Positions 39,394 through 61,236 of a DNA stretch of 64,000 bases are shown here, in pieces (position 1 is the first letter of the stretch; the number at the start of each line of letters is the position of its first letter). This DNA is from Variovorax boronicumulans (GTDB taxonomy: Bacteria > Pseudomonadota > Gammaproteobacteria > Burkholderiales > Burkholderiaceae_C). Location of the stretch: contig NZ_JAUSSG010000001.1 of the NCBI RefSeq assembly GCF_030812215.1, positions 1,178,001 to 1,242,000 on the forward strand, given 5' to 3'. The notes beneath the pieces were generated by a model, which saw only the letters and a program-made list of their open reading frames with translations, made no database searches and was not told the DNA's origin. The position numbers were made by a program, and so were the translations under genes.

Positions 39394-40114
39394 CGTGCGT
39401 GCCCCCGCCCAGATAGGTCGCCTGCACGCGCGGGTCGCTTGCGAGTTCGGCCGAGGCACCTGAGAGCGCGATCTCTCCGGTCTCCAGCACATAGCCCTCG
39501 TCCGAGCTTTCGAGTGCGGCGCGCGCGTTCTGCTCGACCAGCAGGATCGAGACGCCGTCGTCCCGCAGCTTGCGCACGATAGTGAGGATGTCCCGCACGA
39601 TCAGCGGCGCGAGGCCGAGGCTGGGCTCGTCGAGCATCAACAGGCGCGGCGCCGACATCAGCGCGCGCCCCACCGCCAGCATCTGCCGCTCGCCGCCCGA
39701 GAGCGTGTCGGCGCGTTGCGAACGGCGCTCGGCCAGCCGAGGGAACCGGTCGTACACCGACTGCAGCCGTTTCTTCATCGCATCGCCGCGCAGCCGCTTG
39801 GCATACGCGCCGAGCTGCAGGTTGTCGAGCACGGTGAGTTCGCCGAACAGCTCGCGCTTCTCGGGCACGAGGCACAGGCCGCGCTCCACGCGCGCTTCCA
39901 CGTCGAGCCCCTGCAGGTCTTCGCCCTCGAAGCGCAGCGTGCCCTTGCACGGCAAGAGGCCCATGGCCGCGGCCAGCAGCGTGGTCTTGCCTGCGCCGTT
40001 CGGTCCGATTACCGAGATGATCTGGCCGGGTTGCAAGTCGAGCGACACGCCGCGCACCGCCTCCACCTGCCCATACGACACATGCAGGTCACCGATCTCC
40101 AGCATCGCGGTCAT
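39383..40114 (-). CDS. livF: Branched-chain-type ABC transporter ATP-binding protein, LivF-like
   Basis: 243 residues. Walker [17 protein letters not shown] (about 38-53), signature [16 protein letters not shown], Walker [15 protein letters not shown]. It has the short LivF size and starts with the LivF-like [20 protein letters not shown]. It pairs with the ATPase half of the LivM-LivG fusion encoded directly upstream (four-base overlap). The transporter belongs to the aromatic catabolic cluster, so an aromatic acid or auxin is a better guess for the cargo than leucine. Confidence 0.9.
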
Positions 40115-44175: not shown

Positions 44176-44215
44176 GTCGTAGCTCCGGTGAGGATGGTTG
44201 GAATGAACAGGTAAC

Positions 44216-44680
44216 TCAGATGAACAACTGGATCGCCGGCAATGCGCGTGCGGCGTTGAGCAGGTCGATGCGCTTCTGGCGGATGGCCCAGCCCGAAGGC
44301 GTGCGCACGAGGTGGTGGCGGGCCGTGCCGCTCAGCAGGATCTGGGACTCGCCGCGCGCCTCGACGTAGAGGAACGGCGTGCGCAGATGCACCTCGTCCC
44401 CGGTCTCGCTCTCGATGCGCGAGGGCTGCAGCACATGCTGGCTGTGGCTCGCGGGGTGCTGCGAATGGGCGCGCGGATTCTTCAGGCGATCGACGCGCAA
44501 CTGCAGCAACAGGCGGTCCTCGAAAGCCAGCGAGTTGTGCGAGAACGGATCGGCCTGCGCGGCGCCGAGCAGCGGCACCCAGTAGTGGCCGTCCTCGGCG
44601 AAGAGGGCGAGCCAGTCGTCGAAGCGCCGCTCGTCGAGCAGGGCAGCCTCATGAGCAATGAAATCGCGCGGATCGTTCAT
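44216..44680 (-). CDS. Rieske dioxygenase beta subunit, second pair
   Basis: 154 residues of the ring-hydroxylating dioxygenase small-subunit family (SnoaL-like cone fold). The motif ALFAEDGHYWVPLL (about 24-37) and the C-terminal IRQKRIDLLNAARALPAIQLFI (two pieces: IRQKRIDLLN and LPAIQLFI) match the other beta subunit at 54033, which also ends in PAVQLFI. It forms an alpha3beta3 complex with the alpha subunit whose gene overlaps it by four bases. The start at MNDPRDF is set by that overlap. It is probably structural rather than catalytic. Confidence 0.88.
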   Translation of the reverse strand: MNDPRDFIAHEAALLDERRFDDWLALFAEDGHYWVPLLGAAQADPFSHNSLAFEDRLLLQLRVDRLKNPRAHSQHPASHSQHVLQPSRIESETGDEVHLRTPFLYVEARGESQILLSGTARHHLVRTPSGWAIRQKRIDLLNAARALPAIQLFI

Positions 44681-45996: not shown

Positions 45997-46020
45997 CGGC
46001 GGGCGCTCAGGCTGCTTCTT

Positions 46021-47166: not shown

Positions 47167-47200
47167 TGAGATTGCTCCAGCGTGTGTTGTGTGCGTTGTT

Positions 47201-48370
47201 TCAGGGAACCAGCTTCCACTGGCCCTTTTCCAGCTTCACGACCACACGCGAGCGCTCGTCCGACCCGTAGCGATCGGTCGGCTTGAAGTTGTAGACGCTG
47301 TGCGTGCCCACCAGCTCCTTGGTGCTGACGATGGCGTCGCGCAGTGCAAGCCGAAACTGCGGCGTGCCCGGCTCGGCCTTGGTGGCGAGCGCGCGCTGGG
47401 CCGCATCGAGGTACAGCAGCCAGGCGTCGAAGGTGTAAGCCGAGAAGGCATCGGTCGGCGGGGCGCCGTTGGCCTTCTGGTAGGCGGCGCGGAAGTCCAT
47501 CGACACCTTGCGGATCGGGTTGTCGTTGGGCAATTGCTCCGCCACGATCACCGGGCCGGTGGGTGCGAGCATGCCTTCGACGGCCGCACCGCCCACGCGC
47601 ACGAAGTCGGGGTTGATGAGCGCGTGCATGCCGTAGATCTGGCCCTTGTAGCCGCGCTCCGACAGCGCGAGATACGGCAGCGCGCCGGGCGTGCCCGAGG
47701 TGCCGGTGATCACCGCATCGGGGCGCAGCGCCACGATCTTCAGCACCTGCCCGGTCACCGACGAATCGGCGCGCGCATAGCGCTCGTTCGACACGATCTT
47801 GATGCCCGCCGGCTCCGCGCTCTTCTGCAACGCGTCATACACCAGGTCGCCCCATGCGTCAGAAAAGCCGATGTAGCCGACCGTCTTCACGCCCGACTTC
47901 TTCATGCGCTCGACCACCGCGCTCACCATCAGCGGTGCGGGCTGAGGCAGCGTGACCATCCACGAGCCTTCTTCGCCGGGCAGGTTGGCGTTGGCGATGG
48001 AGATGAGCGGCGTCTTGGTCTCGCGCGCCACGCCGGCAATGGCCAGCGCACCGGGCGAGCCCGCGGTGCCGATGATGACGTCGACCTTGTCCTCGTCGAT
48101 CATCTTGCGGGCATTGCGGGCGGCCGTGGACGGATCCGACGCATCGTCCAGTTGCACCAGCTGGATCTTGCGACCGCCGAGGTCGGCCTTGTAGGCGAGC
48201 GCGGCCTTCATGCCCTTCTCATAGGGAATGCCGAGCGACGACACCGGCCCCGAGAGCGACGTGATGAAGCCGACCTTGAGATCGGCGGCCCACGCGCCAG
48301 CCACGGCGCTCAGGGCGCCGAGGCCCACGGCGATGCCCGCGAGGGCACGGAATCGGTTCAGGACTTTCAT
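47201..48370 (-). CDS. Periplasmic substrate-binding protein, Liv/AmiC type (copy 3)
   Basis: 389 residues, signal peptide ending AGAWAAD. FITSLSGPVSSLGIPYEKGM and TVGYIGFSDAWGDLVYDALQ make it intermediate between the other two copies. It ends KLEKGQWKLVP, as copy 2 ends KGQWKLVP and copy 1 GQWKLAP. It is encoded 52 bases after the SDR gene in the direction of transcription and is the first binding protein of the run. In the published auxin locus, binding proteins are part of the operon; transport of indole-3-acetate is inferred. Confidence 0.88.
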   Translation of the reverse strand: MKVLNRFRALAGIAVGLGALSAVAGAWAADLKVGFITSLSGPVSSLGIPYEKGMKAALAYKADLGGRKIQLVQLDDASDPSTAARNARKMIDEDKVDVIIGTAGSPGALAIAGVARETKTPLISIANANLPGEEGSWMVTLPQPAPLMVSAVVERMKKSGVKTVGYIGFSDAWGDLVYDALQKSAEPAGIKIVSNERYARADSSVTGQVLKIVALRPDAVITGTSGTPGALPYLALSERGYKGQIYGMHALINPDFVRVGGAAVEGMLAPTGPVIVAEQLPNDNPIRKVSMDFRAAYQKANGAPPTDAFSAYTFDAWLLYLDAAQRALATKAEPGTPQFRLALRDAIVSTKELVGTHSVYNFKPTDRYGSDERSRVVVKLEKGQWKLVP

Positions 48371-48422: not shown

Positions 48423-49154
48423 CTAGAGGGCCAAACTGCCGACGCTGGTGCCGCCGCAGACGTAGAGCACCTGGCCGGTGACGAAGCTGTTGTCGGCGTC
48501 GGCGAAGAACCGCACGGCGCGTGCCACGTCGGTCGATTCGCCCAGGCGCTTGACGGGCACGGAGGCTGCGAGCGATCTCTCCTTCTCGCTGCCGGCTTCG
48601 ACGACGTCGTAGAACATGTCGGTGCGGATCGGACCGGGCGCGACCACGTTCACCGTGATGCCATCCGCCGCGAGTTCCAGTGCCCAGGTGCGGGCCATGC
48701 CCAGCATGCCGGCCTTGGTCGCGGAATAGCTGGTGCGGGTCGCAAGACCCAGCGCCGCGCGCGACGACAGCAGCACCACGCGGCCGAAGCGTTGCGCGCG
48801 CATGGCGGGCAACGCGCCCTGCACGAGCTGGATCGCGCAGCCCAGGTGCAGGTCGACCAGTGCGTCGAGATCGTCGAGCTTCACTTCGGGCAGCAGCGCG
48901 GCACGAATCACGCCGGCGTTGTGGACGATGGTGGTCGGCGCAAAGCGCCCGACCAGCTCGCGCACCGCCTCGCCCGTGGCGGCGCGGTCGCTCAGGTCGA
49001 CCTCGATGCTGTGCAGCTTCGGGTGATCGATCTCGGCCTTGCGGCGCGCGAGCGACACCACCTCGTAGCCTTGCGCGAGCAGGTCTTCGCAGATCGCCTT
49101 GCCGATGCCGGCGCTGCCACCGGTAACGGCCGCGACCTTGGGTGCCGTGGTCAT
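48423..49154 (-). CDS. SDR family oxidoreductase of the auxin cluster
   Basis: 243 residues, a classical and apparently active SDR: TGGSAGIGKAI for cofactor, IVHNAGVIRAA as NAG motif, LSSRAALGLATRTSYSATKAG with catalytic Ser and Tyr-x-x-x-Lys, and PGPIRTDMF. IacE, the SDR of the iac auxin pathway, is a plausible relative. Its ATG overlaps the cyclase-family stop by four bases, so both are translated together. A role in oxidising or reducing an oxindole intermediate is possible; no residue points to one substrate. Confidence 0.87.
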   Translation of the reverse strand: MTTAPKVAAVTGGSAGIGKAICEDLLAQGYEVVSLARRKAEIDHPKLHSIEVDLSDRAATGEAVRELVGRFAPTTIVHNAGVIRAALLPEVKLDDLDALVDLHLGCAIQLVQGALPAMRAQRFGRVVLLSSRAALGLATRTSYSATKAGMLGMARTWALELAADGITVNVVAPGPIRTDMFYDVVEAGSEKERSLAASVPVKRLGESTDVARAVRFFADADNSFVTGQVLYVCGGTSVGSLAL

Positions 49155-49963
49155 GCCGAAGCTCCCACCAGCGCCAGCACGCGCAGCGGGCTGCCGCTGC
49201 CCTTCTCGATCTTGAGCGGCGGACAGATCAGCACCGCGCCCGACGGCGGCAGCAGGTCGAGGTTGCTCAGGCACTGCAGCCCATAGCGCCCGGCGCCATG
49301 CATGTAGTAGTGGCACGGATACGGCGGACGCAGGTGATAGCCCTGCCCGGCATCGGTGCCGATGGCTTCCGAGCCGAAGCCCAGCACGTCGCGCTGCTCC
49401 ACCAGGAAGCGCACGGCCTCGGTGCTCGGGCCGGGCGTGTGCTGGCCGGTCTCGTCGAAGTTCTGGTATGCCTCGGGATCGGTGCGCTTGGACCAGTCGG
49501 TGCGCATCAGCACCCACGCACCCTTCGGGATTCGGCCGTGCACGGCTTCGTAGGCCTCGATGTCTTCCAGCGTCAGCAGGTAGTCGGGGTCGTCCTTCAC
49601 CTGCGGAGAACAGTCGATCACACAGGCAGGGGCCACGAAGTTCTGCACCGGAATCGTGTCGACCGAATTGTTCGGCAGGTCGCGGCCAGAGATCCAGTGG
49701 ATCGGCGCATCGAAGTGCGTGCCCGTGTGCTCGCCGCAGGAGAAGTTGTTCCAGTACCAGCCCGGGCCGCGCTCGTCGTACTTGGACACTTCCTCGATGC
49801 GGAAAGGCCAGCACTGGCCCATCTCGGGCGGCAGCGCGATCTGCGGGAACTCGGGCGTGAGCGTCTGGGTGAGGTCGATCACGCGGATGCGGCCGCTGGC
49901 CATCGCGGTCACGAGGCCGCCGAGGATTTCGGCGGCGGACATCAGTTCGGTTGTCGTGGTCAT
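49151..49963 (-). CDS. Cyclase-family metal hydrolase, candidate isatin hydrolase
   Basis: 270 residues of the cyclase/kynurenine-formamidase-like family. The metal-binding motif HTGTHFDAPIHW (His79, His83, Asp85, His89) is complete. Known members include KynB arylformamidase and the manganese isatin hydrolase of Labrenzia, which opens the lactam ring of isatin to isatinate in a bacterial auxin pathway. Tryptophan and phenylalanine residues before the motif (WYWNNFSCG) would line an aromatic pocket. Given its place among auxin genes I favour isatin hydrolase. It starts 17 bases after the DUF35-SDR gene. Confidence 0.82.
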   Translation of the reverse strand: MTTTTELMSAAEILGGLVTAMASGRIRVIDLTQTLTPEFPQIALPPEMGQCWPFRIEEVSKYDERGPGWYWNNFSCGEHTGTHFDAPIHWISGRDLPNNSVDTIPVQNFVAPACVIDCSPQVKDDPDYLLTLEDIEAYEAVHGRIPKGAWVLMRTDWSKRTDPEAYQNFDETGQHTPGPSTEAVRFLVEQRDVLGFGSEAIGTDAGQGYHLRPPYPCHYYMHGAGRYGLQCLSNLDLLPPSGAVLICPPLKIEKGSGSPLRVLALVGASA

Positions 49964-49980
49964 TCGTGTGGCTCCTGTTC

Positions 49981-51234
49981 TCAGCCGCCTGCCGCGAGTT
50001 CACGCTCGAGCACCTTCGGGTTGTCGCGCCAGCGCTCCAGCCACTCCTGCGCGACGTCGCCCGGGTAGACGTCTTCCACGCCATCGCGCAGCGCCTTCAC
50101 GATGGCGTTGGCCAGCGCGGCAGGCGCCAGCTTGGGCGGCGGTGTGTGCTGGTTCCATTCGTCGTCGATGGGGCCGGGGAACACGTTGATCACGCGGATG
50201 CCCGCGGGCCGCATCTCGGCGCGCAGGCACTGCGCGAGTGAATGCGCCGCCGCCTTCGATGCGCTGAAGGTGCCGTGCGGCGGAAAGTTGCTGAGCGCGT
50301 AGATCGACAGCAAATTGACCCACGCGGTCGCGCCGGTCGCGCCATCGGCCGAGCGGCCCTTGAGCGCCGGGCCGAACTCCTGCGCGAGGCGCAGCAGGCC
50401 GAAGTAGTTGATGTCCATCTCGGCCTTGGCCACGTCGGTGCCACGGCGCGCGCCGATGCCGAAGGTGCGGTGCACCTCGGCGTTGTTGATCACGATGTCG
50501 ACCTTGCCGCCGATGGAGCCCGCAAGCTCGGTCACCTGGCGACCGTTGGTGAGGTCCAGCGGCACCAGCGTCACCTGCGGCAGCGCCGAGATGTCGTCCA
50601 GCCCGTCGCCCATCTTCTTCCAGGGCTCGGCATGGCCGACCCAGACGATGTCGGCGCCGGCCTTCACCAGCGCGCGCACGATGGCCTGGCCGGTCTCGGT
50701 CTTGCCGTCGGTCACCAGCGCCTTGCGGAACTTGGGGTCGCTGGTCATTTCACGCAGCATCTTGTCGTCGGCCATGTGGGCACTCCCTTCATTCGGAAAA
50801 CCAATGAGAACGGCCTGGCCGGCGCGGTCGAGCCGGGCGCCCACGCGCACGCGCTGCGGCGCATCGCCGACCTCGCCGTGCAGGTGGACCATGAGCGTCG
50901 GCCCTGCATCCAGGTGTACGAGGCCCAGCCGCCAGGGCAGCCGCTCGCGGAAGAACAGGTCGTTGCTGTGATGCAGCGTGGTGCTGCCGAGCAGTTCGCC
51001 CTCGCCGCTCTGTGCACGCCAACGCAGCGCGGCGGAAAGGCACTTGTGGCAGACCTCGCGCGGCGGGTACTGCACGGTGCCGCAGTCCTCGCAGGTCTGC
51101 AGCTCGAACCGGCCCTCGGCGGCGGCGGCCGTGAGGCCGAGCGCGACGCGGCCGCGCGCACCGGGCGGCAGGTTCATCTGCCGGGTGCGCAGCACCGGGT
51201 TCTTGCGCGGGGGGCGCATCATCGGCATGGTCAT
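49981..51234 (-). CDS. Fusion of a DUF35 zinc-ribbon/OB protein with a degenerate SDR
   Basis: 417 residues in one frame. Residues 1-150 are a DUF35 protein: zinc ribbon Cys48, Cys51, Cys62, Cys65 (CEDCGTVQYPPREVCHKC), then an OB-fold. From about 155 an SDR-like domain follows, but the cofactor loop reads VTDGKTETGQ instead of TGxxxGxG, and the catalytic tyrosine is phenylalanine (GTFSASK, Phe323, Lys327). A second ATG at Met154 (position 50775) has its own AAGGGAG ribosome-binding site, so the SDR part may also be made alone. DUF35 proteins are obligate partners of thiolase-like lyases; the partner gene overlaps by four bases. Confidence 0.85.
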   Translation of the reverse strand: MTMPMMRPPRKNPVLRTRQMNLPPGARGRVALGLTAAAAEGRFELQTCEDCGTVQYPPREVCHKCLSAALRWRAQSGEGELLGSTTLHHSNDLFFRERLPWRLGLVHLDAGPTLMVHLHGEVGDAPQRVRVGARLDRAGQAVLIGFPNEGSAHMADDKMLREMTSDPKFRKALVTDGKTETGQAIVRALVKAGADIVWVGHAEPWKKMGDGLDDISALPQVTLVPLDLTNGRQVTELAGSIGGKVDIVINNAEVHRTFGIGARRGTDVAKAEMDINYFGLLRLAQEFGPALKGRSADGATGATAWVNLLSIYALSNFPPHGTFSASKAAAHSLAQCLRAEMRPAGIRVINVFPGPIDDEWNQHTPPPKLAPAALANAIVKALRDGVEDVYPGDVAQEWLERWRDNPKVLERELAAGG

Positions 51235-52403
51235 GCGGGTCTCCCCAAGATGACGGCGCCTGTGCACAGGCAGCGGTCGTAGGTCACCATGCCGAAGCCG
51301 GCGACGAGACCGAGTTGCGCATCGGGCACTGCGCGCGGTCCGGCCTGGTCGGTCAGTTGGCGGATCGCCTCGACCATGCCGAGGAAGCCGCCCGCCGCAC
51401 CCGCCTGCCCGGCCGAGAGCTGGCCGCCGCTGGTGTTGTTCGGAAAGCTGCCATCAAAGGTCATGGTGTGCGACTGCACGAAGGCCGGGCCCTCGCCCTT
51501 CTCGCAGAAGCCCAGGTCCTCGAACTGCATCATCACGATGACGGGGTAGTCGTCGTAGGTCTGCACGAAGTCGAGCGCGGCGGGCTGGACGCCGGCCTGC
51601 GCGTAGAGGTCGTCGCGGTCCTTGCGCCAGCCGCCCTGCACCATCACCGGGTCTTCTGCGTAGGCGTTGTGACGCTCGATGGCGCCGCGGATCACGACGT
51701 GGGCCAGGCCCAGGTCGCGTGCGCGCTCCTCGCTCATCACGAGGAAGGCGTCGGCGCCCGCGCAGGGCATCACGCAGTCGAAGAGGTGGATGGGGTCGGA
51801 GATGGGGCGCGCGGCCATGTACTCGTCCAGCGTCAGGCCCTTCTTGAACATCGCGTTCGGATTGCCGAGCGCGTTGGTGCGCTGGTCCACGCAGATGCGG
51901 CCGAAGTCCTCGCGCTTGGCGCCGTAGGTGCGCATGTAGTTGGCGGTGATGAACGCGAAGATCGAGTTCGGTCCGCCCGAGCCGTAGGGATAGCTCGCAT
52001 CGCGCGCGAAGTTGCTGAAGCTGCCGAGCGTCTGGCGGAAGGAATCGACGTGGTTGGTGTCGGCGCCCACGCAAGCCACGATGTCGGCATCGCCCGCCTG
52101 CACGGCACGTGCGGCACGGCGCAGGCACATCACGCCCGATGCGCCACCCGTGGGCACATGGTCGAGCCAGCGCGGCGAGAGCCCCAGGTGCTGCGTCACG
52201 CCCACGGCCGTGTCGGGCGCGAGCGAGAAGCTGCTGAGGCACAGGCCGTCGATCTGCTCCTTGGCGACGCCGCTGGCTTCGACCAGCGCCTCGATGGCCT
52301 GTCCGATGAACCAGTGCGCGGTGCGCGTGGAGTAGCGCACGTAGGGCACGGTGATCGGCACCGCGACCGCAACGCCTTCGTAGGAGAGTCGGTTGCGGAT
52401 CAT
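51231..52403 (-). CDS. Thiolase-fold protein without catalytic Cys/His, candidate retro-aldolase
   Basis: 390 residues of the SCP2-thiolase-like family. At the place of the nucleophilic cysteine (usually CxSG) the sequence is VPTGGASGV, so Gly87 replaces it. The usual GHP histidine motif near the C-terminus reads SAGQAGAAGG with Gln333. Thiolysis is therefore unlikely. Ltp2-type enzymes of steroid side-chain breakdown have the same losses, pair with a DUF35 protein and cleave tertiary beta-hydroxyacyl-CoA esters by retro-aldol, using tyrosines; QTYDDYPV (Tyr283, Tyr286) is a candidate here. The DUF35-SDR gene overlaps its 3' end and the CoA ligase overlaps its 5' end. Confidence 0.86.
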   Translation of the reverse strand: MIRNRLSYEGVAVAVPITVPYVRYSTRTAHWFIGQAIEALVEASGVAKEQIDGLCLSSFSLAPDTAVGVTQHLGLSPRWLDHVPTGGASGVMCLRRAARAVQAGDADIVACVGADTNHVDSFRQTLGSFSNFARDASYPYGSGGPNSIFAFITANYMRTYGAKREDFGRICVDQRTNALGNPNAMFKKGLTLDEYMAARPISDPIHLFDCVMPCAGADAFLVMSEERARDLGLAHVVIRGAIERHNAYAEDPVMVQGGWRKDRDDLYAQAGVQPAALDFVQTYDDYPVIVMMQFEDLGFCEKGEGPAFVQSHTMTFDGSFPNNTSGGQLSAGQAGAAGGFLGMVEAIRQLTDQAGPRAVPDAQLGLVAGFGMVTYDRCLCTGAVILGRPA

Positions 52404-54025
52404 GCCTGCCTCTTTTTCATTGCACGCGTGTCGATGCAGTGCCCCTGCCCCGGCAGCGACTGCGCCATCTCGCGCAGTTGCCCGCGCTGAATCTTTTGCG
52501 AAGGCGTGAGCGGCAGCGCATCGACGAAGGCGATGTAGCCCGGCGCCTTGTAGTAGGCGAGCTGGTCGAGCGCGTGCTGGACGATGCTCGCGGCGATCTG
52601 CGCGCGCTGCGAGGCATCGGCGCCCTCGCGCACCACGATGCAGGCCAGCACTTCGTCGCCGCGCACCGCATCGGGCGTCGCGGCCACGGCCGAGGTCTTC
52701 ACGGCCGGGTGCTGGTTGAGCACGCTCTCGACCTCGACGGCCGAGATGTTCTCGCCACTGCGGCGGATCACGTTCTTCTTGCGGTCCACGAAGAAGAAGT
52801 TGCCCTCGGCATCGCGGCGCACGAGGTCGCCCGTGTGGAACCAGCCGTCGGCCCAGGCTTCGCGCGTGGCCTCTTCGTCTTTCAGGTAGCCGGAGAAGAA
52901 GTAGCGCTGCGGGTCGCTGCCGGCCGAACGCACGAGCAGTTCGCCCGGTGCATCGGTGCCGACGTCGTTGCCGTCTTCGCCCACGAGGCGGAGTTCGACG
53001 AAATCTTCCTGCCGGCCGAAGCAGCTCGTGCCCACGAGGCGCGGTTCGCGGTTGGCCATGATGCAGGCGGCCGCGCCGGTCTCGGTCATGGCCCAGGCCT
53101 CGACCAGCGGAAAGCCGAAGCGCTCCTCGAAGGGTGCGTGGTTCTTGCGGTCCACGCCGGCACCGAAGCCCCAGCGGATCGCATGGTCGCGGTCGGCGGC
53201 AGACGGCGGTGCGGACAGCAGCATCGCGGGCATCACACCGAGGTAGTGCACGATGGTCGCACCGCTTTCGCGTGCGCTGGCGAGCCACGTCTTCGGATGG
53301 AAGCGGTCGAGCTGCACGAGGCAGCCGCCCGCCACCAGCACCACCATGGTGGAGAACGCCATCGCGTTCATGTGGTTGAGCGGCAGCGGCGTGATGACGC
53401 GCTCGGCATCAGGCCGGATGCTGCAGACGCCATCGAGCGCGGCATACCACTCGCCTGCGCGCAGGAAGTAGGCATTGCTCAGGATGCAGCCCTTGGGGCG
53501 TCCGGTGGTGCCCGAGGTGTAGAGCAGGCCGCATTCGGTGTCGACGCCGATGGGCGCGTGCGCACGCGGCGCAGCGGTCTTCGCGCTGGGCACTGCGTCG
53601 TCGGGGCCCATCGTCTCGAAGGCCACGCCGGCTTGTGCCGCGGCTGCACGCAAGTCGGCGGCGCGCTCGGGCAGCGTGACGGCAAGGCCGATTTCGCTGT
53701 GGCCGATCAGGTAGACCAGTTCAGCCGAGCGCATCTCGGCATTGATTGGCACCACGCTCACGCCCAGTGCATTGAGCGCGAACCAGTGGAAGAGGAATGC
53801 AGGCCGGTTCTCCAGCAGCAGGCCGACGCGGTGGCCATGCCCGTAGCCGGCGTGCGCATAGGCCGCGCGTAGCCGCTCTACCTCGGCAGCAGCTTCGCCC
53901 CAGTGAATGGCGCCGGCTGCGACGCCATAGGCGGCCGCAGTCACCGATTCGGTGAACATGAACTCGGCCTGCGGCGTGCGCTGCGCGGTCGCCGCGAAGA
54001 CCTGATGGACGGTGGTGTGTGGCAT
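52400..54025 (-). CDS. AMP-forming acyl-CoA ligase (second copy)
   Basis: 541 residues of the ANL superfamily: [14 protein letters not shown] (about 168-181), VEAWAMTETGAAA, WFHTGDLVRRDAEGNFFFVDR (split: WFHTGDLV and FFVDRKKNVIRRSGENIS) and the C-terminal LTPSQKIQRGQLR with the adenylation lysine. It lies between the first Rieske pair and the thiolase-like gene, with a four-base overlap to the latter. I infer that it activates the dioxygenase product as a CoA ester. The ATG at 54025 is preferred; a GTG one codon earlier is in frame. Confidence 0.87.
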   Translation of the reverse strand: MPHTTVHQVFAATAQRTPQAEFMFTESVTAAAYGVAAGAIHWGEAAAEVERLRAAYAHAGYGHGHRVGLLLENRPAFLFHWFALNALGVSVVPINAEMRSAELVYLIGHSEIGLAVTLPERAADLRAAAAQAGVAFETMGPDDAVPSAKTAAPRAHAPIGVDTECGLLYTSGTTGRPKGCILSNAYFLRAGEWYAALDGVCSIRPDAERVITPLPLNHMNAMAFSTMVVLVAGGCLVQLDRFHPKTWLASARESGATIVHYLGVMPAMLLSAPPSAADRDHAIRWGFGAGVDRKNHAPFEERFGFPLVEAWAMTETGAAACIMANREPRLVGTSCFGRQEDFVELRLVGEDGNDVGTDAPGELLVRSAGSDPQRYFFSGYLKDEEATREAWADGWFHTGDLVRRDAEGNFFFVDRKKNVIRRSGENISAVEVESVLNQHPAVKTSAVAATPDAVRGDEVLACIVVREGADASQRAQIAASIVQHALDQLAYYKAPGYIAFVDALPLTPSQKIQRGQLREMAQSLPGQGHCIDTRAMKKRQA

Positions 54026-54032
54026 CACGTCC

Positions 54033-54533
54033 CTAGATGAAAAGCTGCACGGCCGGGAGCGCCGCGTCGCAATTGAGCAGGTTGACGCGCTTGAGCGTCA
54101 TGCGCAGCGCACCGTCCTGCACCGTGAGGTGATGAAAGAAAGTGCCGACGTAGAACTGCAGCTCGTCGCCCTGCGATTCGGTGTAGTGGAATCCGGTGCG
54201 CACCACGAAGCGGTTGCCCTCGGCGTCGAAGGTCTCGACCACCGGCACCTGCAGCAGGTGGTGGCAGCGGCTCGGCGGCTGCTGCGAAAACGCGCGCGGG
54301 CTCTTCAGGCGCTCGATGCGCAAGTCGCGCAGCAGCTTGTCTTCGTAGAGGTGCGAGGTGTGGTTGAGGCCGTCTTCCTGGTCGGGCACGAGCGGCACCC
54401 AGTAGAAGGCGTCGTCGGTGAAGAGCGCATTCCACTCCTCGTAGCGGCGCGTATCGAGCAGGTGTGCTTCGTTCACGACGAAGTCGACGAGGTCCTGGCG
54501 GGTGACTTCGGCGTTGGTGTCGGTGCCGGTCAT
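54033..54533 (-). CDS. iadE: Auxin (IAA) Rieske dioxygenase beta subunit
   Basis: 166 residues of the small-subunit family, with ALFTDDAFYWVPLVPDQED and a C-terminus ALPAVQLFI like its paralogue at 44216. With the alpha subunit upstream (stop and start share one base, TGATG) it forms the hydroxylating dioxygenase. In Variovorax, iadDE has been shown necessary and sufficient for indole-3-acetate degradation. The letters fit: counting from the divergent MarR, reductase, alpha and beta subunits are genes 3, 4 and 5. Identification rests on gene order and family, not on a sequence comparison. Confidence 0.85.
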   Translation of the reverse strand: MTGTDTNAEVTRQDLVDFVVNEAHLLDTRRYEEWNALFTDDAFYWVPLVPDQEDGLNHTSHLYEDKLLRDLRIERLKSPRAFSQQPPSRCHHLLQVPVVETFDAEGNRFVVRTGFHYTESQGDELQFYVGTFFHHLTVQDGALRMTLKRVNLLNCDAALPAVQLFI

Positions 54534-55846
54534 CACATCGTCTCCGTCATGCGCTCGACCCAGCTGCGGTACTGGTTGCGCATCGGCAGCTCGTTGGTGC
54601 CACCGGTGGTGATCTCGCCGCCCTTCAACTCTGACGCGTCGTAGTCGCGGTGCAGGCTCACCCACTCGTTGCCGCTCGCGTGCAGGCCGGCCTGCATGCC
54701 GCGATACGCCTGCAGGTCGTCGTGCCCCACCACCGAGAACGGCGAATTGATGAGCCGGTTGTACATGGTGGTGCGCTGCAGCAGCTCGGGCGGCGCGCCC
54801 TTCAGGCGAAAGGTCCAGCTCTCGATCAGCGTCTTGTCCGCCGAGATCGGCTTCACCACGCGAATCGCCTGGATCGCACCCTTGATCGTGAGGTTCGGGT
54901 AGTACACCGTGTTGTGCCGCGCCATGCCCAGGATCTGCGCGGTCTTCTCTTCGCCGTAGCGCGCCTTCATGGCGTCGTCGTACTCGGGGATCGCCTTGTA
55001 CTTGCTGTGGATGCTGAAGTGCACGCCCGTGAAGCTGTGGCCGTGGTCGTAGGTGCGGATGCCCATGTCCTCGAAGAACTTGTAGTCGGACATGAAGGGC
55101 ACGAACTGCTCGACCGCCATCGGCTTGGGTTCGTCTGCGGGCTTGTCGGCCCACATGCGCTTGGCGGTGCCGGCCGAGGACTCGTGCGCCACCATCGGGT
55201 GCATGGTGTCGTTGAGGTTCTCCACGAACATCTTCCAGTTGCACTGGTGCATGAAGCGCAGGCACCCACCGGCGATTTCGAGTTCGCCTTCAGGCGAGCG
55301 GTCGGCCATGTTGTCGATGGAGCTCAGCGAGTCGCCGAAGTACGCCTCGAAGTCGGGGCCCGCGTCGTTGATCTTCACGAAGATGAAGCCGCGGTGGCTG
55401 CGCACGTGCTTGAGCGTCGTCAGGCCCTTGGCCGATTCGCACTCGTGCAGCGCGGTGTTTTCGTACCCGGTCTTCAGCGGGATCGCCAGCAGCGAGCCGT
55501 CGGTCTTGAAGGTCCAGGCGTGGTACGGGCAGCGGAAGAACTTGCCGGTGTTGCCGCACGGCGCGCTCACGAGGCGCGACCCCTTGTGCGCGCAGCGGTT
55601 CATCATCGCGCGCACGCTGCCGTCGGTGTGGCGCACCACGACGAGCGGGCGGCCTGCAATCTCGTTGCTGATCCAGTCGCCGGGCTTGGGCAACTGGCTT
55701 TCGTGGCCGACGTAGTTCCAGGTGTTGGCGAAGAAGTGCTCCTGCTCCAGCTCGAAGAGTTCCTGGCTGGTGTACAGGTCGCGGTGCACGCGGTCGTTCT
55801 GCACGAGCGCGCGCACGGCATCGGGGTTGTCTCGGTACGAGGTCAT
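54533..55846 (-). CDS. iadD: Auxin (IAA) Rieske dioxygenase alpha subunit
   Basis: 437 residues. Rieske ligands Cys85/His87 (NRCAHKG) and Cys106/His109 (FRCPYHAW). Mononuclear iron site ENLNDTMHPMVAH with bridging Asp213, His216 and His221; a further carboxylate ligand lies in the C-terminal third. It should dioxygenate the indole ring of indole-3-acetate to dioxindole-3-acetate, with electrons from the reductase encoded next to it. Nearly collinear with the paralogue at 44677. Fourth gene of the operon starting at 60588. Substrate assignment is by locus architecture. Confidence 0.87.
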   Translation of the reverse strand: MTSYRDNPDAVRALVQNDRVHRDLYTSQELFELEQEHFFANTWNYVGHESQLPKPGDWISNEIAGRPLVVVRHTDGSVRAMMNRCAHKGSRLVSAPCGNTGKFFRCPYHAWTFKTDGSLLAIPLKTGYENTALHECESAKGLTTLKHVRSHRGFIFVKINDAGPDFEAYFGDSLSSIDNMADRSPEGELEIAGGCLRFMHQCNWKMFVENLNDTMHPMVAHESSAGTAKRMWADKPADEPKPMAVEQFVPFMSDYKFFEDMGIRTYDHGHSFTGVHFSIHSKYKAIPEYDDAMKARYGEEKTAQILGMARHNTVYYPNLTIKGAIQAIRVVKPISADKTLIESWTFRLKGAPPELLQRTTMYNRLINSPFSVVGHDDLQAYRGMQAGLHASGNEWVSLHRDYDASELKGGEITTGGTNELPMRNQYRSWVERMTETM

Positions 55847-55865
55847 GGTCTGGCGGCTCCTGGCT

Positions 55866-56858
55866 TCAGAGGTCGAGCACCAGGCGCGCACCCTTGGCGC
55901 GCGAGATGCAGATCTGCATGACGTTGCCCTCCGCCTTCTCGCGGGCGGTGAGCACGTAGTCGCGGTGTTCGATCTCGCCCTCGATGACGGGCACGGCGCA
56001 CACGCCGCATTCGCCGCGCTTGCAGTCGAACATCGGGTCGCAGCCGTGCTCGATGAGGCAGTCGAGGATGCTCTGGTCGGCCGGCACGGTGAAGCGCTGG
56101 CCCGACTGGGCGAGCTCGACCTCGAAGGGCTGGTCGCCTTCTTCCGCAACCGGTTCGGTGAAGAGTTCGAAGTGCACGCGGTCGTGTTCCCAGCCGCGTG
56201 CCTGGGTACGGGCGAGCACGGCGTCGAGCATGACCTTGGGGCCACAGACGTAGAGGCGGTCGCCGGCAGGCACGTCGTCCAGCAGTGCATCGATGTCGAG
56301 TGGCGCACCGGCTTCGGCGTCGGTGTGCACGCGCAGGTCGTCGCCGAGCAGCGCCTGCAACTCGGGCAGGAACGCCATCAGCTCGCGGTTGCGGCCGGCG
56401 TAGTGCATGCGCACCGGCGCCTCCTCGGCGCGGCGGCGCGCAGCCATGGTGGCGAGCGGGGTGACGCCGATGCCGCCCGCCACCAGCACCGAGCCGCCGG
56501 GGCCGGTGTGCAGGGGGAAGTCGTTCTTCGGCGCCTCGATGGCGAGCGTGTCGCCTTCGTTCAGTCCCTCATGCATGAAGCGAGAGCCGCCGCGGCCTTC
56601 GGCCTCCTTGCGCACGGCGATCACGTACTCGGTCGGCGCATTGGTGGCGTTGCGCGCGGTCGCGAAGTTGATCAGCGAGTAGTGGCGCCAGTCGGTCTTG
56701 CCGTCGGGCAGCGACACCTGCACGCGGATGTGAGCGCCAGCCGCGAAGCCCGGCAACGGTCGGCCGTCTTCCGCGCTGAGGCGCAGCATGCGGATCAGCG
56801 GATTGAGTTGGCGCGCTTCGGCGACGCGAAGCTGGAGCGTGGCGGTGGGAGCGGTCAT
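55866..56858 (-). CDS. iadC: Ferredoxin reductase (PDR/VanB type) of the dioxygenase
   Basis: 330 residues in the order FMN/FAD-binding barrel (RHYSLINF at about 78-85), NAD-binding domain (VLVAGGIGVTPLATMA at about 128-143) and C-terminal plant-type [2Fe-2S] ferredoxin (FDCKRGECGVC, then CISRAKG). It passes electrons from NADH to the Rieske centre and so makes a two-component system with iadDE. IacF of the iac pathway is an equivalent. Only this reductase is in the window, so it may serve both Rieske pairs. It starts 21 bases after the IorB-like stop. Confidence 0.88.
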   Translation of the reverse strand: MTAPTATLQLRVAEARQLNPLIRMLRLSAEDGRPLPGFAAGAHIRVQVSLPDGKTDWRHYSLINFATARNATNAPTEYVIAVRKEAEGRGGSRFMHEGLNEGDTLAIEAPKNDFPLHTGPGGSVLVAGGIGVTPLATMAARRRAEEAPVRMHYAGRNRELMAFLPELQALLGDDLRVHTDAEAGAPLDIDALLDDVPAGDRLYVCGPKVMLDAVLARTQARGWEHDRVHFELFTEPVAEEGDQPFEVELAQSGQRFTVPADQSILDCLIEHGCDPMFDCKRGECGVCAVPVIEGEIEHRDYVLTAREKAEGNVMQICISRAKGARLVLDL

Positions 56859-56879
56859 CGTGCGTCCGTCGTTGTCTCT

Positions 56880-58391
56880 TCAGGCCAGTGCGTGCTGCGC
56901 CAGCGCGGCTTGCAGCTTGTGGCCGTGTTCGTCGGCGAGCGCCGCATCGCGCAGCTCCCGCAAGGTGGCGGGTGCGAGCTGCGCGCCGGCGCGCTCGACC
57001 GCGCGCATCACGGTGTCGTAGTTGCGGATGCCGCGCTCGTGCGTGTCGCTGTAGCCCTTGACCAGGCGCTGGCACTGCGCGAGTTCGACGGCCAGCTCGG
57101 GATTGCGCTGCGCGGTGGCGGCGATGCGTTGCAGCCACTCCTCGATGCGGCGGTTTTCTTCGGCATAGCGCATCGTGGAGAGGCGCCAGCGCTTCATGGC
57201 GGCCACGGTGCGCAGCATCAGGTAGCCGCGCAGCGAGCTGGTCTGGATCACGCGGCCGTGCTGGGTGAAGCGCTCGACGATCTTCTTGGGCCACCTGGAA
57301 TTCATGAGCCAGCGGCCGATGCCGCCCGGCAGCGTTTCGCAGATTTCCTGCAGGCGCGGGTGCATGTATTCGTTGATCGCGAGCACCTGGCCGGGCTGCA
57401 CGCGGGCCTCGCCGCGTACGCGTTCGAAGCGGGTGGCGCGGGTCTTGAGCGCGGCGACGCGGGCGGTGTCTTCGTAGGACATCCAGAGCGCAAGGTGGCG
57501 AGCGGTTTCGCGCAGGAGGCGGTGGTCGTCATTGCTCGGAAGCGTGGCGACGGCCGCCATGCGGTCGAGGTACAGGCCGGCATAGGCCACGTCTTGGTAG
57601 TCGATGAGGCGGCGTACGCCTTCGAGCAGGAAGTCGTGCGCGGCAACCGGAAAGTCGTGCTGCACACGTTCGACAAGTGCACGCACGGCCGTGTGACGGG
57701 GCTGCGGCGTTGGCACGGCCGCTGCGGGTTCCGGCGGTGCCTCGCCGTCGTCGCCGGCCTGCGCGCGGGCGAACGCACCGCCGAAGGCCTTCAGGCTGGG
57801 CTTCACGCCCACGCCGCCGCGCTCGATGGTCGCCTCGAATTGCGCACGGCTGAACGGCAGCACACCCGAGCCCGCCAGCGCACCGAAGAGCACCGCACTG
57901 ATGACGCTGCCCGATGCTTCGGCGGCTTGTGCCATGTCGAAGCGGATGAAGCGCTTGGCGGCCTTGGCCGTGTGCGCGAGCAGTTGAGCACTGTCGACGC
58001 GGCCATCGCCCAGCGCGCTCTTCTCGGCGATGGAGAACACGCGGTGCGTCGAGGCAATCAACGTGGTGCGGTCGTTCGTGACGAGACCGCGCTGCACCGC
58101 GCGGCCAGCCTCCATGAGTTCGGATGCAAGGACCACATCCACGTCCCCCGGCAGCGGCATCAACGCCAGCACGGGATGGCCGCCGTCCGCTTCGGCTCGC
58201 GCGATCGGATAGAGCTCGACGTAGTAGATGGTCGCGCCCGTGCGCTGGGCCACGCCCGGCACGGAGGTAGTCTGGGCCACATAGCCGTTCGCCTCGCCCA
58301 TGTCGATGATCCAGTCGGCCAGCACGCCGCCGCCCTCCCCGCCCATGGCGAGGATCGCGATCTTGATGGGTTGCGCCCTGGTGTTCGTCAT
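56880..58391 (-). CDS. Indolepyruvate oxidoreductase beta-subunit family protein with long C-terminal domain
   Basis: 503 residues. The first about 200 are the gamma/IorB-type domain of 2-oxoacid:ferredoxin oxidoreductases (ILAMGGEGGGVLADWI, then VPGVAQRTGATIYYVE). The remaining 300 residues are a helical DUF6537-like extension, with EVRG-type ARFERVRGEARVQPGQ in its centre, which classical 200-residue IorB proteins lack. It pairs with the TPP subunit encoded four bases upstream. An earlier in-frame ATG at 58406 is possible. If lettering follows the operon, this would be iadB. I infer an aromatic 2-oxo acid, perhaps isatinate, as substrate. Confidence 0.82.
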   Translation of the reverse strand: MTNTRAQPIKIAILAMGGEGGGVLADWIIDMGEANGYVAQTTSVPGVAQRTGATIYYVELYPIARAEADGGHPVLALMPLPGDVDVVLASELMEAGRAVQRGLVTNDRTTLIASTHRVFSIAEKSALGDGRVDSAQLLAHTAKAAKRFIRFDMAQAAEASGSVISAVLFGALAGSGVLPFSRAQFEATIERGGVGVKPSLKAFGGAFARAQAGDDGEAPPEPAAAVPTPQPRHTAVRALVERVQHDFPVAAHDFLLEGVRRLIDYQDVAYAGLYLDRMAAVATLPSNDDHRLLRETARHLALWMSYEDTARVAALKTRATRFERVRGEARVQPGQVLAINEYMHPRLQEICETLPGGIGRWLMNSRWPKKIVERFTQHGRVIQTSSLRGYLMLRTVAAMKRWRLSTMRYAEENRRIEEWLQRIAATAQRNPELAVELAQCQRLVKGYSDTHERGIRNYDTVMRAVERAGAQLAPATLRELRDAALADEHGHKLQAALAQHALA

Positions 58392-58395
58392 CGCT

Positions 58396-60588
58396 TCAGA
58401 AGGCATAGGCTTCGCGGCGGCGTGCTTCGCCGCGCTGCAGCCAGCCAATGACGGCGGAGCGCACGCGCTCGCGCAGCTTGTCCCAGCCGGTCGGGTTGCT
58501 CACGATCTGCGCCTTGTAGAACGAGGGGCACAGCACCGCGGCGTGCGAGACCTCGCCGCACACGCCGCAGCCCACGCAGCTGTCGAGCACGGTTGCGACC
58601 GGGTCGGTGCGCAGCGGATCGGGGTTGGGCTTGATGGAGAGCGACGGGCAGCCCGACAGGCGGATGCACGAGTGGTCGCCGGTGCAGGTGTCGGAATCGA
58701 CGCCGAACTTCTCGCGCACCATGCGCTTGCCATCGGCGATGGCCTTGCGCACCAGCGGCTTCTCGCGGCGCTGCTTGTTGAGCATGCACTCCGACTGCGC
58801 GATCAGGACCTTGGGGCCCTTCTTCGTGGTGGTGAGCGCCTCTTTCAACGCATCCCGCATGCCGGCGACGTCGTAGGTGCGGCGCAGCGTCTTCACCCAC
58901 TCGACGCCCACGCCGCGCACGGCGCGTTCGATCTCGTGGCCGGTGCTGCGCGTCTTGTTGACGGCGTTCGACGAGAGGATGTCCTGCCCGCCGGTGGCCG
59001 AGGTGTAGTTGTTATCGACGACGATGGTGAGGTTGTCGCTCTTGTTGAAGACCGAATTCGCCACGCCGCTGGTGAGGCCGTTGTGCCAGAAGCCGCCGTC
59101 GCCCATCATCGAGATGGCGCGCTTGCCCGCCGGTGCATTGAGCGCCGAGGCGCCCGCGCCACCGAGGCCGTAGCCCATGGTGGTGTTGCCGATGTTGAAG
59201 GGCGGAAGGATCGAGAACAGGTGGCAGCCGATGTCGGCGCTGACATGGTGTGCGCCGAGTTCTCGTTCGACCAGTTTCATCGCGCTGAAGATCGGCCGTT
59301 CCGGGCAGCCGGTGCAGAAGCCCGGCGGGCGGGCGTGCACGACATCGCCGAGGGCTGTGGATGGCATGGCCGGCTCAGGCGCGGCATCGATGCCAATGAC
59401 GGCCACTTCCTTCAGCGGGATCACCTTGCGCACCGGCGCGGGCACCGGCAGCGGCGCGAGGCGTTCGTAGCGCTCGCAGAAAGTGCGCGCGCCCTTCAGC
59501 AATTCAGATGACGTGTACTCGCCGGCGACTGGCAGCATGTCCTTGCCGTGCAGCGCGGTGGTGGAGCCCGCCTGGCGCAGGATGGTTGCGAGATTCTGCT
59601 CGACGAAGTTGGGCTGGCCTTCTTCGACGATCAGCACCGCGCGCTTGCCTTCGCAGAAGCGGATGACTTCGCTCTCGATGACCGGATAGGCCACGTTCAT
59701 CACGTAAAGCGGCACCTTGGTGTTGCCGTACACGTCGGCGAGATCGAGCCGCTCCAGTGCGCGCAGCAGCGTGTTGTAGCTGCCGCCCTGCACGATGATG
59801 CCGATGTCGTCGGCGTCCTCGGAGAAGAACTCGTTGAGCTGGCGCTCTTCGATGAAGCGCACGGCGGCGGGCCAGCGGTCCTTCACCTTTTCCTGTTCGT
59901 GCACGAAGCTCGCGGGCGGCAGCACGATGCGGCTGACGTCGCGCTGCGGGTTCTCGAGCGCCTCTTGCAGCGTGAACTTGGCGCGCTTGTTGTCGCCGGC
60001 GATGAAGTGGCCGTGCACGTGGCAGGCGCGGATGCGCAGTTGCAGCATCACGGGCGTATTGCTGGCCTCGGAGAGATCGAAACCCGTCTTCACCGCATCC
60101 ACGATGCTTGGCAGGTTGGGGCGTGGATCGAGCAGCCAGATCTGCGACTTCATCGCGAACGCATGGCTGCGCTCCTGCATGATCGACGAGCCTTCGCCGT
60201 AGTCCTCGCCCACGATGATGAGCGCACCGCCAGTCACGCCGCCCGATGCGAGATTGGCCAGCGCGTCCGATGCGACGTTGGTGCCCACGGTGGCCTTGAA
60301 GGTGACGGCGCCGCGCAGCGGGTAGTTGACCGAAGCCGCAAGCGTGGCGGCGGCGGTGGCTTCGCTCGCGCTGTTCTCGAAGCGAATGCCCTGCTCGGCG
60401 AGGATGTCCTGCGCGTCGGCCAGCACATCCATCAGGTGCGAGATGGGGGCCCCCTGGTACCCGGCCACATAGGAAACCCCGGATTCGAGCAAGGCCTTGG
60501 TGACCGCCAGAATGCCTTCGCCACGAAATACATCTCCGCCGGAAAGCCGCAGCTTCTTGACTTCTTCGACGAACGAACGCTCAGCCAT
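58396..60588 (-). CDS. Indolepyruvate:ferredoxin oxidoreductase alpha-subunit-like protein
   Basis: 730 residues, with pyruvate-ferredoxin-oxidoreductase domains and TPP site: GYQGAPISHLMD near the start, GEDYGEGSSIMQERSHAFA, a TPP/Mg motif GDGGFWHNGLTSGVANSVFN (exact end of the pyrophosphate site), and two iron-sulfur motifs near the C-terminus. The second is complete (CVGCGVC...CP). The first reads CTGDHSCIRLSGCP, where aspartate replaces the second cysteine. The enzyme decarboxylates aryl 2-oxo acids to acyl-CoA with reduction of ferredoxin. First gene of the operon (iadA if lettering follows order), AAGGA ribosome-binding site, divergent from the MarR gene. Confidence 0.85.
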   Translation of the reverse strand: MAERSFVEEVKKLRLSGGDVFRGEGILAVTKALLESGVSYVAGYQGAPISHLMDVLADAQDILAEQGIRFENSASEATAAATLAASVNYPLRGAVTFKATVGTNVASDALANLASGGVTGGALIIVGEDYGEGSSIMQERSHAFAMKSQIWLLDPRPNLPSIVDAVKTGFDLSEASNTPVMLQLRIRACHVHGHFIAGDNKRAKFTLQEALENPQRDVSRIVLPPASFVHEQEKVKDRWPAAVRFIEERQLNEFFSEDADDIGIIVQGGSYNTLLRALERLDLADVYGNTKVPLYVMNVAYPVIESEVIRFCEGKRAVLIVEEGQPNFVEQNLATILRQAGSTTALHGKDMLPVAGEYTSSELLKGARTFCERYERLAPLPVPAPVRKVIPLKEVAVIGIDAAPEPAMPSTALGDVVHARPPGFCTGCPERPIFSAMKLVERELGAHHVSADIGCHLFSILPPFNIGNTTMGYGLGGAGASALNAPAGKRAISMMGDGGFWHNGLTSGVANSVFNKSDNLTIVVDNNYTSATGGQDILSSNAVNKTRSTGHEIERAVRGVGVEWVKTLRRTYDVAGMRDALKEALTTTKKGPKVLIAQSECMLNKQRREKPLVRKAIADGKRMVREKFGVDSDTCTGDHSCIRLSGCPSLSIKPNPDPLRTDPVATVLDSCVGCGVCGEVSHAAVLCPSFYKAQIVSNPTGWDKLRERVRSAVIGWLQRGEARRREAYAF

Positions 60589-60640
60589 GTCGGTCCTTCT
60601 TCTTTCTCGTGGGAGGATGCGCTTCAGGTGCCACATCACG

Positions 60641-60690
60641 CTTTCTATAATGTTGACAAATGAATGTATCCACAATCATGAATTACCCTA
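60641..60690. promoter_or_regulatory. Divergent promoter/operator region between the iad operon and marR
   Basis: The only AT-rich part of the 159-base gap. On the minus strand TTGTGG (60670-60675) and CATTAT (60646-60651), 18 bases apart, may form the operon promoter. On the plus strand there is TTGACA (60653-60658). The 23-base span 60653-60675, from TTGAC to CCACAA, is an imperfect inverted repeat, and it overlaps both boxes, as expected of a MarR repressor site. Confidence 0.5.
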
Positions 60691-60747
60691 GACATGCAAG
60701 CTGCGTGCCCACGGCTGGTTTGACGTGCCTGGCTGAGAGGTGCCTTC

Positions 60748-61236
60748 ATGGCTGAACAAGACCAACCGACCGAATCGCATCGCTTCGTCGACGACTACCT
60801 GCCGGCGCTGCTCGCGCAGGCGAGCCAGCTGATCTCCTCGGAGTTCCACGAGGTGGCGCGCCAGCAAGGGTTCTCGGTATCGGAGTGGCGTGTGATGGCC
60901 TCGCTCGCGGGCAGCGAGCCGATCAGCATCGGCCAGCTCGCGCAGGTGACCGTGACCAAGCAGCCGACGGTCACGCGCCTGCTCGACCGCATGGAATCGC
61001 GCGGACAGGTCGAGCGCCTGCCCCACGAAAGTGATCGCCGCATCACGCTGGTGCGCATCACGCGCAAGGGGCTGAAGGCCGTCGAGCACCTGATGGAACT
61101 CGCACGCGAGCACGAGCGGCGCGTGCTCGAACCCTTCGGCCTCCGGCGGGCCGAGGAGCTCAAGCAGACACTGCGGCGGATGATCGAACTGCACGTGCAT
61201 GTGCCGCTCGAGGAATCGGAGCCGGAAGAAGACTGA
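60748..61236 (+). CDS. MarR family repressor of the auxin operon
   Basis: 162 residues. The winged helix includes ISIGQLAQVTVTKQPTVTRL (recognition helix) and LPHESDRRITLVRITRKG (wing), with dimerisation helices at both ends. In Variovorax the MarR protein divergent from the iad operon binds indole-3-acetate, which releases it from DNA; position and family of this gene fit that regulator. The very acidic C-terminus (EESEPEED) is distinctive. The stop lies six bases before a convergent gene. Ligand identity is inferred from the locus. Confidence 0.88.
   Translation: MAEQDQPTESHRFVDDYLPALLAQASQLISSEFHEVARQQGFSVSEWRVMASLAGSEPISIGQLAQVTVTKQPTVTRLLDRMESRGQVERLPHESDRRITLVRITRKGLKAVEHLMELAREHERRVLEPFGLRRAEELKQTLRRMIELHVHVPLEESEPEED

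Follow-up and report, generated by a model that had tools for sequence, protein, structure and literature searches.

The window analysed here, a 64,000-nucleotide stretch of Variovorax boronicumulans, carries on its minus strand ten genes, iadA to iadJ, of a locus that degrades the auxin indole-3-acetate (IAA). The locus and the overall route from IAA through isatin to anthranilate are already known; new are a testable role for two marker genes of the locus, iadA and iadB, and a different chemistry for the cut of the side chain. As a whole, the stretch is probably best explained as the known iad locus, in which IadG and IadH cut the side chain by a retro-aldol reaction, IadI hydrolyses isatin and IadAB yields anthraniloyl-coenzyme A (CoA). 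That IadAB acts on isatinate seems to us quite probable, and that its product is a CoA ester moderately likely.

In the proposed mechanism, IadCDE oxidizes IAA by adding a single oxygen derived from O2, and dioxindole-3-acetate is completed by IadJ, as published in a preprint (PMC12633357). IadF would then make the CoA ester of dioxindole-3-acetate, and IadG together with the DUF35 half of IadH would cut it to isatin and acetyl-CoA, as Ltp2 and Sal do on steroid side chains. IadI would open isatin to isatinate, and IadAB, with thiamine pyrophosphate (TPP) and Fe-S clusters, would oxidatively decarboxylate isatinate, most likely onto CoA; the resulting anthraniloyl-CoA would pass to a monooxygenase/reductase whose gene lies at another place in the genome, so that anthranilate in its free form would arise as a side product or by hydrolysis. 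We give about an even chance to the following claims taken jointly: that IadAB is a CoA-acylating isatinate oxidoreductase; that IadI and IadAB, feeding a 2-aminobenzoyl-CoA monooxygenase/reductase (ACMR), form an auxin-independent isatin cassette onto which CDE, J, F, G and H were added; that the true iad product is anthraniloyl-CoA, the reported anthranilate being a leak; and that IadGH represents a third type among the retro-aldolases that depend on DUF35, characterized by a Tyr-Asp pair.

The distribution of iadAB was determined in a phylum draw, in which the same 398 genomes of one phylum were searched for IadH, IadA, IadI and the ACMR-type protein, and in an order draw of 130 genomes. 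Matches were assigned to the IadA clade at identities of at least 64% and to IadI at 48% or above, leaving out three IadI matches of 37-39% and two IadH matches covering only the short-chain dehydrogenase/reductase (SDR) half (G345, G194). In the phylum draw, full-length IadH was found in 8 genomes, all of which carry IadA and IadI, the IadA clade in 25 and IadI in 25, with both in 23 (Fisher p = 7e-33, not a true probability because the genomes are related). Outside the IadH genomes, IadI accompanied IadA in 15 of 17 cases (p = 4e-23, again without correction for relatedness). By genus, IadA occurred in 15, IadI in 15 and both in 13 of 212 genera. The two genes lay 10-2778 bp apart in 13 of the 15 IadH-less genomes having both, and on different contigs in the other two. 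Cassettes of the order A-B-I (L110, and L111 with an ACMR-type gene nearby) or I-A-B (L112) had no iadC-H match within 20 kb, the range in which the IAA genes besides iadH were sought, and no IadH genome-wide. Genomes holding only IadA paralogues served as a control: none of the 4 in the phylum draw had IadI, nor did any of the 10 in the order draw, of which G496 was classed by identity alone and not placed in the tree. Among the best 80 of 562 IadG loci, 20 are shorter than 20 kb and 53 of the 60 longer ones hold IadA. Of the seven longer loci with no iadA in view, six were followed into their genomes, and all six genomes carry an IadA-clade gene elsewhere (65-69% identity), which in five directly adjoins a second isatin hydrolase; in the seventh (L085) the retrieved sequence ends at IadB, and the genome of L078, whose locus is cut by the contig end, also has IadA. 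Over both draws, IadI was present in 24 of 29 IadA-clade genomes.

Several observations weigh against action of IadAB on isatinate. In the order draw the IadA clade occurs in 6 genomes and IadI in only two of them, these two and no others having IadG. Across both draws IadA is found without IadI in five of the 29 genomes (G262 and G019 in the phylum draw; G455, G428 and G507 in the order draw, the G507 genome being 78% complete and its IadA match partial); the four of these exceptions that were placed in the tree are scattered, and the neighbours looked at explained nothing. IadI occurs without IadA in G327 and G237, and in G327 (L123) it adjoins an ACMR-type gene. Moreover, one genus holds 8 of the 25 IadA genomes, and in several genomes a further gene separates A from I, at a distance of about 2 kb (L113). 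Published complementation also bears on this point: the deletion strain lacks genes 77-53, with iadA as gene 72 and iadC as gene 70 (PMC9613470), so that the re-introduced iadC-K2 segment was without iadAB. This segment nevertheless restored anthranilate (PMC12633357), and hence iadAB is not the sole route there, an IadA paralogue or chemistry being the alternatives. Strains overexpressing iadC-K2 strongly accumulated C8H7NO3, the formula of isatinate, and C7H7NO (PMC12633357); the absence of an isatinate-consuming enzyme would predict such a pile-up of C8H7NO3, which may, however, have been caused by overexpression. The original prediction that a pair resembling indolepyruvate oxidoreductase (IOR) acts on isatinate is thus supported by co-occurrence and adjacency, and weakened by the exceptions and by the restoration of anthranilate without iadAB.

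In the phylum draw, all 25 genomes with IadA, as against 46 of the 373 others (E 1e-150), encode the ACMR-type protein (NF006101), in which a flavin monooxygenase is joined to an old-yellow-enzyme half; its gene adjoins A-B in L119, L121 and L126. Since iadAB tracks the isatin hydrolase gene, mostly adjoins it and in this draw is always accompanied by the ACMR-type gene, IadAB would most likely convert isatinate into anthraniloyl-CoA. We take the 2-aminobenzoyl-CoA monooxygenase/reductase to belong to the NF006101 family. Enzymes of the 2-oxoacid oxidoreductase superfamily normally transfer to CoA, which, together with the constant presence of the ACMR-type gene, speaks against a decarboxylation by IadAB that releases free anthranilate or 2-aminobenzaldehyde from isatinate instead of the CoA ester. 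Such a free product is possible, if unlikely: anthranilate is the published end product and C7H7NO was detected, but C7H7NO accumulated in strains without iadAB (PMC12633357). The 2-aminobenzoyl-CoA route is described in PMC6221969. Counting against anthraniloyl-CoA as the product, NF006101 is named salicylyl-CoA 5-hydroxylase by NCBI, and the ACMR-type protein of the own genome passes the cut-off for that enzyme (1362.3 against 1078), while the L019 and L111 proteins, at 1053.7 and 999.5, fall short of it; given such mixed scores, anthraniloyl-CoA is only a putative ACMR substrate. Downstream of the ACMR-type gene in the own genome, and co-directional with it, come genes for a hydratase, an acyl-CoA dehydrogenase, a CoA ligase of the benzoate-CoA-ligase type (369.8 bits against a cut-off of 375.25) and a RidA-type protein, the last of which suggests an amino substrate. 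No anthranilate dioxygenase over the cut-off was found in the own genome, where the best match (168.4 of 671.9) is by position IadD itself. Published auxin-degrading cassettes consist of iadCDE or iadC-K2; if CoA-acylating IadAB is correct, engineered auxin-degrading strains should also carry iadAB, and the pathway would yield free anthranilate merely as a by-product.

The second part of the finding concerns the side-chain cut, for which residues were counted in open reading frames (ORFs) that cover over 85% of the corresponding protein from the window (87 IadG, 86 IadH, 86 IadI and 74 IadJ, from the 90 loci L017-L106, a set that holds a few strains twice, as L018/L035 and as L060/L061, the latter both strain E41). 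The best PDB matches of IadG are 9myr (CtSal) first, then 4u4e and 6ok1 (Ltp2). Catalytic residues are Tyr294 (the base, of YDHF) and Tyr344 in Ltp2; in Sal they are Tyr302 (the base) and Cys304, both of YDCY, near which Gln347 and Gln352 lie (PMC12329534). All 87 IadG proteins have the motif YDDY, in which the base Tyr is kept, retain both Gln of Sal, and have Gln in the column of Ltp2 Tyr344, as does Sal, and Asp in that of Sal Cys304 (columns mapped by our own count). The thiolase-nucleophile region reads GGAS in 87 of 87; the Cys of thiolase 7yvy aligns with the second Gly of this motif, that of 7pxp falls in a two-residue insert relative to IadG, and the HDAF His of both aligns with a Tyr. 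A true thiolase, for which the nucleophilic Cys and the HDAF His are lacking, is not tenable by sequence. Moreover, a tertiary beta-alcohol is no thiolase substrate, which counts against a ketothiolase IadG. IadG has the base Tyr, the missing Cys and the DUF35 partner of Ltp2 and Sal, and lacks their second catalytic residue; as judged from these residues, it shares traits with each of the two subfamilies but fits into neither.

IadH carries zf-ChsH2 and OB_ChsH2_C, with the four DUF35 zinc Cys in 86 of 86, and its SDR half departs from the classical dehydrogenase motifs TGxxxGxG and YxxxK, having TD for TG in 83/86, Glu (NNAE or NTAE-like) for the Gly of NNAG in 82/86 and Phe for the catalytic Tyr in 68/86. 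Because this half is degenerate and IadJ is intact (catalytic Tyr and Lys in 74/74), a dehydrogenase role of IadH is doubtful. Absence of the thiolase Cys and presence of the base Tyr in IadG, together with the degenerate half of IadH, favour a retro-aldol cut, and the residues thus side with the expectation that ligation would be followed by such a cut to isatin and acetyl-CoA. Like IadGH, the steroid aldolases Ltp2-ChsH2 and Sal-Shy combine a thiolase fold having a base Tyr and no thiolase Cys with a DUF35 partner, whereas IadGH has YDDY in place of YDHF or YDCY, its DUF35 is fused to an SDR-like domain and not to a MaoC hydratase, and its substrate is inferred, in contrast to the steroid side chains cut by Ltp2 and Sal. 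Some data speak against an aldolase. Asp occupies the position of a His in Ltp2 and of a Cys in Sal, and replacement of the Sal Cys by Ala, Ser or His left no activity (PMC12329534); the SDR Tyr is kept in 14 of 86 IadH proteins; and C8H7NO2 builds up without IadI, isatin not being reported there in the available text of PMC12633357, although other enzymes may have reduced isatin to the dioxindole that is seen when IadI is missing. With the caveat of Asp for Cys, the aldolase reading is tenable by sequence.

In the preprint, IadG is regarded as a ketothiolase and IadH as an alcohol dehydrogenase, which with IadF would remove the acetyl group reductively to give on-path dioxindole, IadI would be a broad amidase and iadAB would be unneeded. 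Deletions of F, G, H and I indeed reduce anthranilate, C8H7NO2 (the formula of dioxindole) accumulates in the iadI deletion and in a construct without iadI, and iadC-K2 restores anthranilate (PMC12633357). Against this stand the aldolase Tyr and the missing Cys and HDAF His of IadG, the degenerate SDR half of IadH and the nearness of IadI to solved isatin hydrolases, and the authors themselves resorted to annotation for the F, G and H steps (PMC12633357), so that we regard this route as unlikely.

IadI matches the isatin hydrolases 5nna, 5nmp, 5nnb and 4j0n in the PDB with E from 3.2e-111 to 1.2e-82. The active-site residues of the Labrenzia enzyme are His69, His73, Asp75, His79 and Trp80 (PMC6117287), and all five, forming the HxxxHxD metal site and a His-Trp pair, are present in 86 of 86 IadI proteins (matched by motif). 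The match to the Labrenzia and Ralstonia enzymes (5nna, 5nmp, 4j0n) is near full length, with no difference in the checked residues. IadI is thereby the predicted isatin hydrolase, in agreement with the proposal that a cyclase-family enzyme gives isatinate. PMC12633357 annotates it as a kynurenine formamidase, perhaps a broad amidase; we rejected a kynurenine formamidase, as IadI scores 24.9 bits on the arylformamidase model TIGR03035 (cut-off 223.05). Two genomes (G392 at L125, G265 at L126) have two isatin hydrolases each, one with G-H and one near A-B.

IadAB has the TPP domain and cluster cysteines of the 2-oxoacid oxidoreductase superfamily, as do IorAB and phenylglyoxylate:acceptor oxidoreductase; the GDG motif and seven C-terminal Cys of IadA are invariant in 25 aligned sequences. 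Phenylglyoxylate:acceptor oxidoreductase is a related enzyme type, isatinate being 2-aminophenylglyoxylate. IadB scores 741.4 bits on NF006179 (cut-off 348), and IadA 288.9 bits on the IOR_alpha model TIGR03336, so far under the cut-off of 650.9 that IadA was rejected as simply an IOR. A tree of 52 IadA-like proteins, made by a quick method with one support measure, with group labels assigned by us and three short IadA pieces left out, splits an IadA clade (35) from paralogues (17) with support 100, and members from iad loci and isatin cassettes are interleaved within the clade. Paralogues occur in the own genome and in G379 (51-52% identity), and the own one (L017, G000:C3; 51%) has no isatin hydrolase match in the surrounding 20 kb. 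IadA thus differs from IorAB in score, in its separate clade and in its tie to isatin hydrolase. That IadAB acts on another 2-oxoacid, for example turning indolepyruvate into indole-acetyl-CoA and so feeding auxin precursors in, would agree with the family name IOR and with the IadA-clade genomes lacking isatin hydrolase, but the low IOR_alpha score and the clade mostly adjoining isatin hydrolase in IadH-less genomes make it quite improbable. No role is assigned to iadAB in the available text of PMC12633357, PMC9613470 (where the two genes appear as markers and by family name only), PMC10374108 and PMC11630574, or in the open-licence PMC papers searched, supplements excluded; that of PMC12633357 has no mention of iadA, iadB, retro-aldol or DUF35. 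No open-licence paper was found that joins phenylglyoxylate oxidoreductase with isatin.

Conversion of IAA to anthranilate has been shown for V. paradoxus CL14, not for this strain (PMC9613470, PMC12633357). With iadCDE, F, G, H, I and J deleted, and anthranilate lowered by every deletion (PMC12633357), the view that only iadDE and the MarR repressor have established roles is out of date; ligase and thiolase-like mutants at the wild-type anthranilate rate would have told against the proposed pathway, and these deletions lowered anthranilate significantly. The IadCDE product is C10H9NO3, formed by monooxygenation with one O2-derived oxygen, and the IadJ product is C10H9NO4 (dioxindole-3-acetate), which accumulates in the F, G, H and I deletions (PMC12633357). 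The SDR family of IadJ was correctly named at the outset, but no step had been given to it. Two added oxygens would suit a Rieske dioxygenase, but the original prediction that IadCDE alone makes dioxindole-3-acetate is contradicted by tracer experiments with deuterium and with 18O-water and by the iadJ deletion (PMC12633357), as well as by IadJ being an intact SDR, and is hardly credible.

The ORF check of the window gave the ten genes in the predicted order from 60588 to 48423, and their Pfam families agree with those proposed (Table 1). With the adopted starts of iadB (58391), iadD (55846) and iadG (52403), for which the upstream letters were inspected, consecutive genes from iadA through iadJ stand -10 to +22 bp apart; the gap between iadR and iadA is 159 bp. 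IadD matches PDB entry 9o71 end to end (E 7e-299), which is IadDE of V. paradoxus CL014 (PMC12633357); thus, the stretch is the iad locus of a Variovorax, as had been proposed, and an unrelated pathway was rejected. All markers of the locus given in PMC9613470 (iadA/iadB with iadCDE, F-J and a divergent MarR gene) are present. Compared with the locus of strain CL14, the genes are the same, MarR is likewise divergent from iadA (PMC9613470) and no difference was seen in the part studied, whereas the functions that we propose for iadAB, G and H do not appear in the available published accounts. An iad locus is also reported from Achromobacter and Bradyrhizobium. In the best 80 of 562 IadG loci, the order is conserved at identities of at least 40% (H in 79, I in 77, D in 71, J in 71 and A in 60), which is not chance. 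A promoter/terminator scan of 60500-60850 detected nothing.

Table 1. Genes of the iad locus and associated features in the window
Feature	Coordinates	Strand	Basis
iadA, IOR-alpha-like TPP/Fe-S subunit, proposed CoA-acylating isatinate (2-aminophenylglyoxylate):acceptor oxidoreductase	58396..60588	-	Pfam TPP_enzyme_C
iadB, IOR-beta-like subunit with DUF6537	56880..58391	-	Pfam POR and DUF6537; NF006179
iadC, reductase of IAA oxygenase	55866..56858	-	FAD/NAD/2Fe-2S families; role PMC10374108, PMC12633357
iadD, Rieske oxygenase alpha	54533..55846	-	PDB 9o71 full-length match
iadE, Rieske oxygenase beta	54033..54536	-	Pfam Ring_hydroxyl_B
iadF, CoA ligase, proposed on dioxindole-3-acetate	52400..54025	-	Pfam AMP-binding; deletion phenotype PMC12633357
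iadG, proposed Ltp2/Sal-like thiolase-fold retro-aldolase	51231..52403	-	PDB matches, YDDY and GGAS
iadH, DUF35 (zinc ribbon and OB) with degenerate SDR, proposed IadG partner	49981..51234	-	zf-ChsH2, OB_ChsH2_C and adh_short in one chain
iadI, predicted isatin hydrolase	49151..49963	-	Cyclase PF04199; PDB matches
iadJ, SDR making dioxindole-3-acetate	48423..49154	-	Tyr and Lys 74/74; step from PMC12633357
iadK2, periplasmic binding protein	47201..48370	-	Peripla_BP_6; IAA-specific per PMC10374108
iadR, MarR repressor, divergent from iadA	60748..61236	+	Pfam MarR; role PMC9613470
Second acyl-CoA ligase, candidate anthranilate-CoA ligase	37807..39492	-	NF004808 860.5 bits, cut-off 722
4HBT thioesterase	35931-36395		54% identical to one between ACMR-type gene and iadB in L121

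The co-directional run extends beyond the ten genes to about 37.8 kb, with the second acyl-CoA ligase at its far end, and holds substrate-binding proteins, a second Rieske pair and permease and ATPase genes of a branched-chain-type ATP-binding cassette transporter. In L019 a ligase 57% identical to this one adjoins genes for a thioesterase and an ACMR-type protein, and in L020 another, at 55% identity, lies near the G-H-I genes; the 4HBT thioesterase could release anthranilate from its CoA ester. Three related substrate-binding proteins (43012-48370; one recognized by Pfam, the others by identity) lie in one operon with 63-70% mutual identity. The second Rieske alpha/beta pair (44216-45996) has an alpha subunit 57% identical to IadD, and this alpha has a match at 40% identity or more in 49 of the best 80 of 562 IadG loci.

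Other arrangements of the genes were also seen. L091 (Castellaniella caeni) reads R-A-B-G-H-I-K2; at the 40% identity level, its 21 kb contain none of C, D, E, F and J. L019-L023, L127 and L151 come from genomes of a different class within the phylum, where G-H-I blocks are separated from CDE-J, and L127 and L151 have A-B-C-D-E-J as the second block. Two metagenome-assembled genomes named Verrucomicrobia and Fonsibacter (L087, L098) contain iad pieces with IadG 78% and 75% identical to that of the window, reflecting either transfer or mis-binning.

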